DNA of 64,000 bases from an uncultured Amylibacter sp. (lineage in GTDB: Bacteria > Pseudomonadota > Alphaproteobacteria > Rhodobacterales > Rhodobacteraceae): the NCBI GenBank assembly GCA_947497475.1, contig CANMGS010000002.1, positions 620,001-684,000 on the forward strand. The letters are read 5' to 3'. How positions within the stretch are numbered: position 1 is the first letter of the stretch; each line of letters opens with the position of its first letter. Below the pieces are notes generated by a model. That model was not told the origin of the DNA and did not search any database. It worked only from the letters and a program-made list of their open reading frames with translations. Positions 34,281 to 39,531 of the stretch are shown here, one piece after another. The translations under genes were made by a program, and so were the position numbers.

Positions 34281-35423
34281 ATGGCATTAGATACACCATT
34301 ACCGTTGAATTCGATGGGCTTTGCCAAAGAACCCAAAGATACACGTGTGCTTGTCGCTATGTCAGGCGGCGTAGACAGTTCCGTTGTGGCAGCGCAATTG
34401 GCATCCGAAGGGTACGACGTGGTTGGTGTCACACTACAGCTTTATGATCACGGAGCGGCTTTGGCCAAAAAAGGTGCATGTTGTGCTGGGCGTGATATCC
34501 ATGATGCACGCCGTGTGGCTGAAGAAATGGGTTTTCCCCATTACGTTCTGGATTATGAGAATAAGTTCAAAGAAAGCGTGATCGACGAGTTCGCTGATGC
34601 ATATCTTGCGGGTGCAACCCCCGTCCCATGTATCCGTTGCAATGAGCGCGTGAAATTCCGCGATCTGTTGGAAACCGCCAAAGACCTTGATGCGGACTGC
34701 ATGGCAACAGGCCACTACATCCAACGCTTCCAAGGTGACGAAAAAGCAGAGCTACACAAAGCCGCTGACGGAGACCGCGATCAATCCTATTTCCTATTCT
34801 CAACAAAACAAGAACAGCTAGATTATCTGCGCTTCCCATTGGGGCATCTGAAATCCAAGGCAGAAACACGTGAACTGGCCCGTAAATTCGGTCTGCCCGT
34901 TGCAGACAAGCCAGACAGCCAAGATATCTGTTTCGTTCCAAACGGGTCCTACGCCGCTGTCATCGAAAAACTACGACCTGAAGCAGCAGACCCAGGCGAT
35001 ATCGTCCATCTGGATGGCGAAGTTTTAGGTCAGCACAAAGGCATCATCCACTACACCATCGGCCAACGCCGTGGTTTGGGCATCGGCGGGCGTGATCCGC
35101 TTTATGTGGTGAAATTGGATGCAGACACAAAACAAGTTATCGTTGGTCCGAAAGAGGCTTTGGGTACAACAACAGTCCCTGTACGCGAAATCAACTGGCT
35201 GGGTGATGAACCGTTTGAATCTCGCTCTGAATGGCATGTCAGCGTTCGTGTGCGCTCTACCCGCGCACCTAAAGAAGCAATCATCCGTCCTATTAGCGCC
35301 ACCGAAGCCTCCGTTGAACTGCTTACGTCAGAAGAAGGCGTCGCCCCAGGCCAAGCTTGCGTATTCTACGAAACCGAAGGCACTAGGATTTTTGGTGGTG
35401 GCTGGATTTGGCGTGGGTATTAG
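34281..35423 (+). CDS. mnmA: tRNA-specific 2-thiouridylase MnmA
   Basis: Makes 2-thiouridine-34 in tRNAs for Lys, Glu and Gln using ATP and relayed sulfur. The 380-aa protein has the PP-loop [15 protein letters not shown], the catalytic cysteine pair in [16 protein letters not shown] and [11 protein letters not shown], and the [10 protein letters not shown] segment. The ATG has GGAGA upstream. Sulfur would come from a desulfurase such as the IscS-type enzyme in the suf operon. Confidence 0.96.
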
Positions 35424-35467
35424 ACTATAAACCTTTGTATTATTTTGAGTATTACGAAGGTTTTTAC

Positions 35468-36082
35468 ATGTTTTACTTAGATAACTTCCCAGAATCGCCA
35501 AAAAAACCAAATGGCTATTGTAATCTAACGAACTCATCTGAATGGATGCCTTGGCTAATTTGTATGGTTCCCCGCAGTATAGACACTTCCGTAGCAAGTT
35601 ATTTTTATTCAAATGCAAAACACATTATTGTTGGTTTGGAAATGAAAGCAGGACTAATCATTCCTCATCAAGAAAGTCGAAGTACTGGTTCGGTTTTATT
35701 TGAGCCATATTTTCAAATTATGTCATTTGAATTTTGTGTAGGTGTATTTTCCCTTTTTGAGGGGCTAGGTTCTTTTATCTACCTCGTGAACAACGGTAAA
35801 AACGGTTCAGAAGGGGAACGAGTTATCACCAATAATTGGATATCAGCGATTGTAAATACATACGATGGTGATGGAGAAAAAGATTTAGAATCTAAACTTA
35901 AGCTTGTGAAGTCTGTACGTGATAAAATGCATCAAGATAAGCTTGGTATTAGAGAAGACATTGATTGGCATTCATTTGACTATGACCGTGCATTCAAACC
36001 AGCATTAGAAGCAGTTCAAATTATATTAACCAATTGTGAAGAAGCCATTCCAAAAAATACTAACCTCTTATATAATCAATGA
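35468..36082 (+). CDS. Orphan hypothetical protein, AT-rich
   Basis: A 204-aa protein (ATG at 35468 with GAAGG seven bases upstream; the track starts 20 codons earlier inside mnmA). It is visibly richer in AT, Tyr, Phe, Asn and Lys codons than its neighbours. The C-terminal half looks helical, with a RDKMHQDK segment after a long loop that only loosely recalls HEPN-type RxxxxH motifs (the spacing is three, not four to six). I do not recognise a family. Composition and position at the edge of a gene-poor islet suggest recent acquisition. Confidence 0.6.
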   Translation: MFYLDNFPESPKKPNGYCNLTNSSEWMPWLICMVPRSIDTSVASYFYSNAKHIIVGLEMKAGLIIPHQESRSTGSVLFEPYFQIMSFEFCVGVFSLFEGLGSFIYLVNNGKNGSEGERVITNNWISAIVNTYDGDGEKDLESKLKLVKSVRDKMHQDKLGIREDIDWHSFDYDRAFKPALEAVQIILTNCEEAIPKNTNLLYNQ

Positions 36083-36180
36083 AATTTAACATGAAGCCCC
36101 CCACTAACACCATTTCGCTAGCAGATTTTTTTCTTATCTATGCTGTATATGGTTGAAAATGGTGGGCCCACCAATGTGGT

Positions 36181-36333
36181 TTATAGAACCGAACAAGGTT
36201 GCCCTGCCTTGCGCTTAGTTTGACCTGTCATTTTAGCGGTTTCCTCATATGACGCTGTTAACCGTCCTTCGGAAACCCGAAAACCAATATGTGTCGACGG
36301 GACTGTTATACCCTGCAAAACGTTGATACGGCG
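36181..36333 (-). pseudogene. Possible remnant of a formylglycine-generating-enzyme-like gene
   Basis: Between two in-frame stops the minus strand reads about 50 codons containing VPSTHIGFRVSEGRLTA. The HIGFRV motif is typical of the extreme C-terminus of SUMF1/FGE-sulfatase-modifying and EgtB-like proteins. No start or N-terminal domain exists, so it would be a decayed tail. The match rests on a short motif. Confidence 0.3.
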
Positions 36334-36355
36334 TTACACCTGCGTGCGGTGAGTG

Positions 36356-37342
36356 CTACTGTGCGATCTTGGTCAGTGTTTCTATCTCAACGATCTGCCC
36401 TTCACGCAGAACCTCTGCCGTAACCGTATAATTCCCGGCAACCCAGCCGCCACGTGGGGCTTTTTTACCAGAAAAATACATTTGTGTGGCTCTGTTGCGC
36501 TCAAGTGGGTCATATGTTTTTGTTATGATCTCACCTTTTGCATTCATCAAAGACAGGCGGATTTGGTCGCCCTTTTTTACATTGATCGCGCGAACATACC
36601 CAACAAGTGCACCTGCCGTGCGTGTCGGTATATAGTCTTGAAATGTTTCATTCTCGATGTCTTGTATGGTGATCCGACCATCTGCAAATCCAAGGTTAAT
36701 GATTTGAGTGGGTTGATAGGCCAATATCTCTTGTAGGTTTTCTGCCCAAAGATTGCCTTTTGGCAATTCTCCGCATTGGGTGATTTCATTGGGATTTAGA
36801 AACGGATCGATCTTTTCTCCATCTTTACGTAAAGACAGATGTACATGCGGGAATTGGGTTTTACCAGATAAACCCACCTGCCCGATTACATCGCCAGCTT
36901 TAACAAACTGTCCTTTTTTGACAGACACACTGCCCAGTTTCATATGGCAGTACTGTGTTTCCCATCCATCATCATGTTCGAGCACCAAACCATTTCCGCA
37001 TTCTTTGCCCTTATAGGCTGCGCGATCTGCATCGCTTTGCACCAATTTATCAGGCATAGTGTTGCGCAATCCCAAAACACGGCCATCAGCGGAAGCGAGG
37101 ACATTTACGCCCTCTTCCATATCTTGAAGTGTGAGCAATCTAAAATCCGTACCTTTATGGCCATCATAAGTAGCGGCTCCACAGCCAAAGTCACGCACAA
37201 CTTCGCTATCATCCAAATCCATATATTGCTGGATATAACAGCTCTTGCCCAACTCACACTCAATGGGCAGTTGCAAAACGGGTGGTTCTGCCATTGCTGG
37301 AAATGATATTAAGGATAAACCAAAGAATACGCGAAAAAACAT
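36356..37342 (-). CDS. Secreted M23-family (LytM) peptidase
   Basis: A 328-aa periplasmic protein with a signal peptide (MFFRVFFGLSLISFPAMA). The LytM domain (about residues 55-180) keeps zinc ligands in GHKGTDFR (HxxxD) and HVHLSLR (HxH), so it should be an active peptidoglycan endopeptidase. The C-terminal 140 residues form a beta-rich unknown region. It is divergent from the M20 peptidase gene. Confidence 0.88.
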   Translation of the reverse strand: MFFRVFFGLSLISFPAMAEPPVLQLPIECELGKSCYIQQYMDLDDSEVVRDFGCGAATYDGHKGTDFRLLTLQDMEEGVNVLASADGRVLGLRNTMPDKLVQSDADRAAYKGKECGNGLVLEHDDGWETQYCHMKLGSVSVKKGQFVKAGDVIGQVGLSGKTQFPHVHLSLRKDGEKIDPFLNPNEITQCGELPKGNLWAENLQEILAYQPTQIINLGFADGRITIQDIENETFQDYIPTRTAGALVGYVRAINVKKGDQIRLSLMNAKGEIITKTYDPLERNRATQMYFSGKKAPRGGWVAGNYTVTAEVLREGQIVEIETLTKIAQ

Positions 37343-37412: not shown

Positions 37413-38786
37413 ATGTCATTAGAGAAAGTTCTTGCCCATATTGATGCCGATCAAGACGCAGCACTGGCGCGATTGATCGAGTTATTGAAAATCGAAAGTG
37501 TCTCAACTGATCCTGCTTATGCAGCAGAATGTGATAAAGCTGCGGATTGGTTGGTGGATGATCTGAAGTCGATTGGGTTTGACGCATCAAAACGCCCTAC
37601 CCCTGGTCACCCTATGGTCATGGCGCATGGGGATCAAACGGACGGTACGCATGTGCTGTTCTATGGGCATTACGATGTGCAGCCTGTTGACCCTTTGGAA
37701 TTATGGAATTCTGCACCTTTTGATGCAAAAGTCGAAGACACGCCAAATGGCCCTGTGATCCGTGGGCGTGGCTCATCTGATGACAAAGGCCAGCTAATGA
37801 CATTTGTTGAGGCTTGTCGTGCTTGGAAAGCTGTGACGGGATCACTGCCGACTAAGATTTCGATCTTCTTTGAAGGTGAAGAGGAAAGCAGCTCACCGTC
37901 TCTTGTGCCATATATGAATGAAAACAAGGATGAGTTGCAGGCAGATGTCGCTCTGATTTGTGACACTGGTATGGTGGAACCTAATACCCCCTCTATCGTG
38001 ACGATGTTGCGCGGTATGGTGAAGGCTGAATTTACGATCACAGGGCCAAGCAAAGATTTGCACAGTGGCATGTATGGCGGCCCGTCTATCAATCCATTAC
38101 GCGTGATGAGCCAAGCTTTGGGCGCGTTACATGATGAAACTGGCCGCGTGACATTGGAAGGTTTTTATGACGGGGTTCCTGAATTGCCTGCGAATGTTGC
38201 TGAGCAATGGAATAATCTCGATTTCGACGGTGATAAATTCCTGAACGAAGTTGGATTGTCAAAACCTGCTGGAGAAAACGGACGCAGTGTTTTAGAAATG
38301 TTATGGTCACGCCCAACGGCTGAGATTAACGGTATGTGGGGTGGATATACCGGCGAAGGTTTTAAAACTGTTCTGCCTGCGGAAGCCAATGCCAAAGTCA
38401 GTTTCCGTTTGGTAGGGCAACAAGACCCTGACCAAGTTGAAGCAGCCTTTAAAAAGCACATAGAAAAGCACCTACCAGAAGATTGTACGGTCACATATCA
38501 TTCCACAAGCGGTGACAGCGCATCAAATATGGCGATTGATCATCCTGCATTTGAAAAAGCCCGTAATGCATTATCAAATGAATGGGCTAATGAAGGTGTG
38601 TTTGTTGGGTGTGGTGGTTCCATCCCTATTGCGGGACATTTCCAAGATATCGTTGGTTTGGAAACCATGCTCATCGGCTTTGCCCAAGATGATGATAGTA
38701 TCCATTCGCCGAATGAAAAATACGACCTGCGCAGTTTCCATAAAGGTATCCGCAGTTGGGCGCGTATTTTGGACGCTTTAAGTTAA
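37413..38786 (+). CDS. M20-family dipeptidase
   Basis: A 457-aa zinc-dependent peptidase of the ArgE/DapE/CPG2 group. The first metal-site segment is VLFYGHYDVQPVDP (about residue 85), GRGSSDDKGQ carries the bridging aspartate, and FEGEEESSSPSL holds the catalytic glutamate pair. A dimerisation (lid) domain follows at about residues 190-340. No signal peptide. It is likely a cytosolic dipeptidase. Its stop overlaps the convergent neighbour by 9 bp. Confidence 0.88.
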   Translation: MSLEKVLAHIDADQDAALARLIELLKIESVSTDPAYAAECDKAADWLVDDLKSIGFDASKRPTPGHPMVMAHGDQTDGTHVLFYGHYDVQPVDPLELWNSAPFDAKVEDTPNGPVIRGRGSSDDKGQLMTFVEACRAWKAVTGSLPTKISIFFEGEEESSSPSLVPYMNENKDELQADVALICDTGMVEPNTPSIVTMLRGMVKAEFTITGPSKDLHSGMYGGPSINPLRVMSQALGALHDETGRVTLEGFYDGVPELPANVAEQWNNLDFDGDKFLNEVGLSKPAGENGRSVLEMLWSRPTAEINGMWGGYTGEGFKTVLPAEANAKVSFRLVGQQDPDQVEAAFKKHIEKHLPEDCTVTYHSTSGDSASNMAIDHPAFEKARNALSNEWANEGVFVGCGGSIPIAGHFQDIVGLETMLIGFAQDDDSIHSPNEKYDLRSFHKGIRSWARILDALS

Positions 38787-39272
38787 CCGTCTTTTGGCTG
38801 ACCAAAGTAAAGCACGCGAATATAAATCGTGAAAACCGAGTAATGCTGAAAACAAAAAGCCCATCTCGGTTTTCCCGTTTTGTTTATGGAATTTAGCCGT
38901 TACAGCGGATCCAAAATACAATCGTGTACCCTTCTCTTGTGGATGTATTGATAACCACGATGATGTGCGGCCTGCATTTAGCAATATTTGAGTTTCTGTA
39001 CGCTCCGTAAGTTTCCATAAAGCAAAATAATTGGATTGGTTCGATGCCAAAGCTACAACGTCTTGGTCTGTTGAAGAAGCTGATGCAAATAGTTTTAGAA
39101 GGAACCGTTCCAATTTGAACAATGGCGTTTTGTAGAAAGCGTTTATATATGCTTCTAAACTGACGCGACCTTGAAGTTCGCAGTAATAACAATCCGCATA
39201 TGCATTCAGTTCTGTTGCATAGGTGTCCAATAAACTGTCCTCTGGGACATCGCATTTGTTTATAGTACTCAT
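38778..39272 (-). CDS. Conserved hypothetical protein (164 aa)
   Basis: I use the ATG at 39272, which follows AGGTG, eight codons inside the track ORF. The protein has no signal peptide. An N-terminal DCYYCELQGRVSLEAYINAFY segment, a central SSWLSIHPQEKGTRLYFGSAV strand pair, and a C-terminal LLGFHDLYSRALLWSAKRRL helix remind me of unnamed small proteins common in Rhodobacterales. No catalytic motif is apparent. Function unknown. Confidence 0.65.
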   Translation of the reverse strand: MSTINKCDVPEDSLLDTYATELNAYADCYYCELQGRVSLEAYINAFYKTPLFKLERFLLKLFASASSTDQDVVALASNQSNYFALWKLTERTETQILLNAGRTSSWLSIHPQEKGTRLYFGSAVTAKFHKQNGKTEMGFLFSALLGFHDLYSRALLWSAKRRLT

Positions 39273-39531
39273 TTTGCACCTGTAGTGGCCATTCAATACC
39301 TAATTTTTTGTGTTTTTGTATTTTATGTAAACAACCAAATTGTCGCTGATATGATATGATATATTACGTAACGTCACTTGGTAGTAATCTTGAATGGTAC
39401 TCATGATCATATATCTAAGAACCAGCCTTGGGGAAGTGGGCCCTTTAAGTAAATGTATACTTTAGGCGGTAAGTAGTGTTTTTGCCATAGTTTGATGGCT
39501 GTGTAGCGTAATGATTTCTGGGTCTACTTAA

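Follow-up and report, generated by a model that had tools for sequence, protein, structure and literature searches.

What fills the short interval between mnmA and an M23 family peptidase gene in an uncultured Amylibacter sp., and what might its contents do? The window analysed here is a stretch of 64,000 nucleotides from a genome of 3.02 Mb, in which the two genes are separated by a gap of about 930 bp. The ctrA-sciP neighbourhood in the window and the named organisms that carry relatives of the gap gene suggest Rhodobacteraceae. The gap holds an intact gene that is referred to below as the orphan, followed by about 270 bp that reach to the convergent peptidase gene and carry one copy of a dispersed, structured element (Table 1).

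A variable gap downstream of mnmA

The orphan stands out from its surroundings in base composition, with a GC content of 0.35 (GC3 0.26) against 0.448 for the window, and just 0.3% of the 615-bp stretches in the window are equally AT-rich. No significant family was found for its product in Pfam, NCBIfam, PADLOC, PHROGs or the sequences of the PDB; a weak match to TY-Chap2 (E 0.26) was taken as chance. The AT-rich islet with a 204-aa gene of unknown family, which an earlier note on this DNA had recognised, is thus real. Elsewhere in the window, a 172-aa ORF on the minus strand (38778-39296) has no match in Pfam or NCBIfam.

A likely ribosome-binding site, GAAGG (35457-35461), stands 7 nt upstream of the ATG at 35468, so that a longer, TTG-started version of the ORF is probably spurious. 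This site is overlapped by an imperfect inverted repeat, AAACCTTTGTA...TACGAAGGTTT, located 3' of the mnmA stop codon and followed by a T-rich stretch. Judged from its letters, the repeat may act as a terminator or a leader hairpin; a terminator scan with a loop limit of 8 did not pick it up, and a sequence scan found no promoter-like site. Neither an integrase nor an insertion sequence was identified beside the orphan, whose flanks (mnmA, sciP, ctrA and the M23 peptidase gene) place it outside any prophage.

Table 1. Positions of the orphan gene, its motifs, the structured element and the flanking genes in the window
Feature	Position	Strand	Remarks
mnmA (tRNA 2-thiouridylase)	34281..35423	+	380-aa ORF; conserved, bounds the variable gap on the left
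Imperfect inverted repeat AAACCTTTGTA...TACGAAGGTTT, then T-rich	35429..35464	+	Read from the sequence
Orphan gene	ORF 35468-36079, stop to 36082	+	Intact ORF, 204 aa + stop
NAKH, codons 49-52	35612..35623	+	Invariant N-x-K-H of helix 1, from family alignments
RDKMHQD, codons 151-157	35918..35938	+	Invariant RDxxHQD, end of predicted helix 140-157
Structured gene-end element, one of its dispersed copies	36096..36348	-	blastn, nhmmer, covariance model
Element core, match to covariance model R1	36159..36297	-	34 pairs, 7 helices, branched; E 4.6e-25 in this genome, the copy being in the R1 training set
TGGTGGGCCCACCA, a palindrome (helix 7 of the element, covarying)	36160..36173	.	T-rich stretch after it on the minus strand
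M23 family peptidase gene	36356..37342	-	Pfam Peptidase_M23, E 1.3e-20; convergent right flank

Comparison with congeners revealed that mnmA (75-99% identical to the window gene) and the M23 gene are adjacent in seven of them, with differing contents of the gap. The distance is about 20 bp in two genomes (G121 and G328). In the others, the gap is occupied by three secreted-looking proteins (G306), one protein resembling these (G311), a 156-aa lipoprotein-like gene (G323), a 231-aa gene without family (G312), or a 398-aa gene together with a 209-aa gene (G308). The 398-aa protein of G308 (L060 2649-3845) matches HEPN_Swt1 at 31.4 bits, above the Pfam cut-off of 27.5, and also the PADLOC candidate PDC-M34B. 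The orphan is present in one of the 33 congeners, its own genome, and absent from the other 32, which rules it out as a housekeeping neighbour of mnmA. Such sporadic occurrence, beside gaps that are differently filled or nearly empty, supports the earlier proposal of a site of gene gain and loss: conservation of the orphan next to mnmA proved to be anything but universal. As far as gene order tells, the interval is best explained as a chromosomal slot that gains different genes in different congeners.

The orphan family and its predicted protein

Relatives of the orphan share 43-54% identity with it and are rare. The closest (52-54%) come from Gemmobacter, Actibacterium, Alterinioella, Marimonas, Aquibium and an uncultured Rhodobacterales bin. 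Viral contigs yielded five relatives in a first search and then nine (43-53%), and two plasmids carry one each, in Sinorhizobium alkalisoli (50%) and Bradyrhizobium septentrionale (44%). The family was detected in 4/298 genomes of the bacterial family, 2/385 of the class and 1/399 of the phylum, each tally counting the window's own genome, while INPHARED (50,697 phage records) contained no relative. A distant relative of 26% identity, itself rare, is encoded in G046 (L010 1381-2052); its matches with the orphan are reciprocal (E 4.5e-4 and 5.8e-4), and a query of the viral contigs with it found nothing. The L010 gene stands downstream of a topoisomerase subunit B-like gene.

In prophages, the relatives are mostly single, reverse-oriented genes with the tail terminator (phrog_4204) on one side and a gene of phrog_6367 on the other, adjoined by the genes of the minor tail protein and the tape measure protein. 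Exceptions are L124, in which the relative lies beside tail genes in forward direction, and L125, in which it lies in the phage replication region. With an orphan relative the slot measures 730 bp. Among the 80 viral contigs whose tail terminators are most similar (IMG/VR loci L131-L210, some of them near duplicates), all 68 in which both flanks could be placed hold 0.5-2.8 kb of other cargo and no orphan relative. The relatives are therefore accessory genes in a differently filled slot, as is expected of prophage cargo (moron) genes. The other cargo includes two HEPN_RiboL-PSP matches, a PD-T4-6-like kinase, a RES domain, and Gp49 and NYN proteins, as well as chromate and sulfate transporters, GNAT acetyltransferases, an alcohol dehydrogenase and regulators. 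This mixture rules out an exclusive defence slot, and the position alone is no proof of defence because transporters, acetyltransferases and other non-defence genes share it.

On the Bradyrhizobium plasmid pBs1S1b (L073), the relative lies 3 bp upstream of gajA-gajB, the genes of the Gabija system, with gajA recognised by PADLOC at E 1e-228. The Gabija operon directly downstream of it (L073 8583-13765) has its gajB split by an IS1380-type transposase gene. The relative on the Sinorhizobium alkalisoli plasmid (L072) lies near insertion sequences; convergent with it are clustered genes for ThiF, multiubiquitin and DUF6527 proteins (L072 8642-11996), for which PADLOC gave E1-E2-like matches.

Structure prediction of the orphan, which the earlier note had proposed, was performed with AlphaFold2 on ten aligned relatives. 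The resulting model is all-helical (mean pLDDT 81, pTM 0.81), with long helices at residues 40-70, 79-108, 140-157 and 172-193 and an extra helix at 121-132 between the second and the third. The same helix order came out of a second model (pTM 0.79), built for a relative of 44% identity. HEPN domains are four-helix bundles in which an insert separates helix 2 from helix 3, and helix 3 ends in an Rx4-6H motif (PMC3710099); the helix order of both models is the canonical HEPN order. RDxxHQD, invariant in the family, is a candidate active site at the position of the HEPN motif, one residue shorter: close relatives carry RDKMH, RDKLH or RDRLH, that is Rx3H, outside the defined Rx4-6H, and L010 alone has a canonical Rx4H (RDSAIHQD). 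The aspartate after the motif arginine is invariant, providing the polar residue (N, D or H) expected in HEPN proteins. Two glutamates in helix 2, E88 and E98, are invariant as well, without the Ex3[KR] context in which the conserved acidic residue of HEPN helix 2 often stands.

Foldseek comparison of the orphan model with the PDB placed HEPN toxin chains in the top six matches, none of them at E 0.001; YutE (probability 0.80), MntA-HepT and Csm6 likewise ranked high. With the second model, two non-HEPN proteins headed the matches, HEPN chains were frequent and again none reached E 0.001. A viral structure library gave no meaningful match, and no HEPN profile matched the orphan sequence in Pfam, NCBIfam, PADLOC, PHROGs or the PDB sequences. 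Given the Rx3H spacing, the lack of a profile match and the lack of a significant Foldseek match, the modelled protein is termed HEPN-like and is not filed as a proven HEPN member.

Taken at about even confidence, the best explanation is that the orphan represents an acquired, prophage-type HEPN-like defence gene. Its relatives are cargo of alphaproteobacterial prophages and plasmids; the orphan itself would have been horizontally acquired and may have arrived in the chromosomal gap by recombination. The product would be a stand-alone RNase of the metal-independent HEPN type, latent until phage invasion triggers its activity, upon which it would cut RNA, stop growth and abort the infection. 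Its active site would consist of R151 and H155, both in the RDKMHQD that closes helix 3, like the R and H of the anti-phage RNase Tha. A host-defence role had earlier been called possible but unsupported; the possibility stands, and it now has indirect support from sequence context and model, namely the prophage cargo position, the Gabija adjacency, the HEPN-like fold and motif, and the HEPN_Swt1 protein in the G308 gap.

The main rival, since the prophage slot holds mixed cargo, is a prophage cargo protein of another function, all-helical and without RNase activity, whose resemblance to HEPN bundles would be due to chance. Superinfection exclusion, lysogenic conversion or regulation might then be its task; we regard this, in general and in these examples, as possible though rather doubtful. 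The chromate and sulfate transporters and GNAT acetyltransferases in the slot, the subthreshold Foldseek matches and the Rx3H spacing are all consistent with it, but it is opposed by the findings that RDxxHQD is invariant exactly at the HEPN position, that the distant reciprocal relative L010 has the canonical Rx4H, and that a second HEPN protein occurs in the same gap in G308 and one orphan relative at Gabija. A role as toxin in a toxin-antitoxin pair, or as an addiction gene that phages and plasmids retain, with an antitoxin encoded elsewhere or not recognised, is improbable. Some HEPN proteins that act alone are toxins, and prophages and plasmids do carry the family, yet no small partner gene was seen beside the orphan in the window, nor consistently in its relatives, which are single genes in prophages and have different neighbours on the two plasmids.

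A dispersed structured element at gene ends

The right part of the gap is largely taken up by one copy of an element of about 250 bp that blastn and nhmmer found to be dispersed. In the window, it starts 8 nt after the stop codon of the M23 gene and ends about 14 nt from that of the orphan. Covariance model R1 recognises 16 copies in this genome, 15 in G306, 14 in G308, 12 in G311, 11 in G323 and 8 in G312. The element occurs in 14/33 congeners when weaker R1 matches are counted; under stricter filters, R1 matches were found in just 3/298 genomes of the family, two of them of this genus. Rfam gave no match at E<=1 in the window region, where tRNA genes were likewise not found. The sole Rfam match with six further copies was PYLIS_3, which lies outside the element: at L104 340-439, it scores 49.6 bits (cut-off 38) near a copy.

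Covariation was tested for the seven helices on 21 copies. Paired cells amount to 93.9%, compared with 37-48% when the partners are slid, a control that flatters the structure because the latter was partly derived from the same alignment. Compensatory double changes are the stronger structural evidence: they number 56 cells against 15.0 in shuffles, and none of 500 shuffles was as high. One hairpin, for instance, is seen as TTACTGGTAA, TCATCGGATGA or TTAACGGTTAA. The window copy alone folds no better than shuffles (z 0.41), so that the structural support comes from covariation among copies and not from the folding energy of a single copy. Extra hairpin modules (AAGTGTTTC...GAAACACTT, or CGGGTTTTCAAAGATTGCTTTGCAATCTT...) are present at different points in copies L082, L088, L091, L099 and L103.

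The copies are often located at gene ends. In 23 of 49 distinct copies, no more than 30 bp separate the start from the stop codon of an ORF on the same strand; in 20, the end is equally close to the stop codon of a convergent ORF. An inverted repeat at the end of many copies reads as a terminator for the convergent gene and is degenerate in the window copy. The palindrome TGGTGGGCCCACCA of helix 7, with the T-rich stretch that follows, is likely a terminator for the M23 transcript. The element lies between the convergent stops of the orphan and the M23 gene; it probably folds within the M23 transcript, at its 3' end, and would help to end transcription. If such a 3'-UTR role is true, transcripts of the upstream genes would be expected to carry the branched fold and to stop past the GGTGGGCCCACC helix. 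G306 and G311 each have an orthologous copy at the same place next to the M23 gene, and G312 has part of one, so that the element is probably an older resident of the site than the orphan.

A decaying miniature transposon or REP-like selfish repeat without a role at gene ends is a serious alternative, to which we give somewhat less than an even chance. Dispersal in 8-16 copies in several congeners, largely of one clade, would be expected of such a repeat, as would palindromes and optional inserted hairpins. The compensatory changes kept in seven helices argue against it; so do the 23/49 copies that start close to a same-strand stop codon and the orthologous sites held in G306, G311 and partly G312, although all of this would also fit a selfish element that came to reside at gene ends.

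There is next to no chance, finally, that the right half of the islet is the remnant of a formylglycine-generating-enzyme (FGE) gene, as the earlier note had proposed from a minus-strand HIGFRV motif that it called typical of FGE C-termini. The letters THIGFRV are indeed present on the minus strand and are all that speaks for this reading, but they lie inside the element copy, and no Pfam or NCBIfam model matched the peptide. A protein search with the tail peptide found nine places in its own genome, some interrupted by stop codons; the DNA of the region is 93% identical in the nearest congener, G306, with a 1-nt indel. Without FGE similarity in the profile searches, and with a DNA family of about 16 copies in this genome that has interrupted frames and compensatory base changes, the decayed tail is refuted, and the string is a by-product of the repeated structured element and not a gene remnant. 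The structured element thus accounts for the false FGE call.

Known systems and implications

The nearest working analogue of the orphan is Tha, a tail-activated HEPN anti-phage RNase of Staphylococcus aureus prophages (PMC11087260). Both would be single, prophage-encoded, HEPN-like helical proteins, and in both cases HEPN-MNT toxins and Csm6 emerge from fold comparison. Tha has 301 aa and the motif R265NSIMH270 (Rx4H), and its inhibitor gene ith overlaps it in antisense (PMC11087260), whereas the orphan has 204 aa and Rx3H, and no overlapping antisense gene was identified in its relatives. As modelled, the orphan resembles HEPN RNases such as HepT, Swt1-HEPN and RiboL-PSP-HEPN (PMC3710099) in its order of four core helices, interrupted by an insert after the second, in a motif that ends helix 3 with an aspartate after the arginine, and in invariant helix-2 glutamates; it differs from them in having no profile match, Rx3H instead of Rx4-6H and no visible Ex3[KR]. 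The orphan is not a component of Gabija (GajA-GajB), in spite of the Bradyrhizobium relative just upstream of gajA, and neither the window copy nor the other relatives have an adjacent Gabija. The fixed prophage slot with exchangeable cargo resembles the P2/P4 defence hotspots (PMC9122126), but it belongs to the head-tail region of prophages from alphaproteobacteria and its cargo is mixed, and the window copy is outside any prophage.

Like REP sequences and the rhizobial RIME, with which it was compared by description and not by sequence, the element is intergenic, palindrome-rich, multi-copy and clade-restricted. It differs in its length of about 250 bp, its branched covarying structure, its frequent position at gene ends and the absence of an Rfam match. 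No description of a matching repeat was found in Rfam or in the openly licensed literature searched, and the element is apparently undescribed.

Relative to the libraries searched, the orphan family is new, with a shortened motif, and would be a new HEPN variant if the HEPN reading holds. An orphan without family thereby gains a concrete, testable function: it would belong to a rare kind of HEPN-like protein carried by prophages, with two residues as candidates for catalysis. The prophage slot, otherwise filled in 68/68 measured contigs, is a place to seek further phage-encoded defence genes. It is conceivable, and put forward tentatively, that one 930-bp gap joins a new prophage defence family, HEPN-like and bearing RDxxH, with a new clade-specific family of branched 3'-UTR elements. 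The latter might, with equal reserve, serve as modules for termination, processing or 3'-UTR-derived regulatory RNA in up to 16 copies per genome. If confirmed, the element would be a new dispersed 3'-UTR element, the role of which is testable at up to 16 sites per genome.
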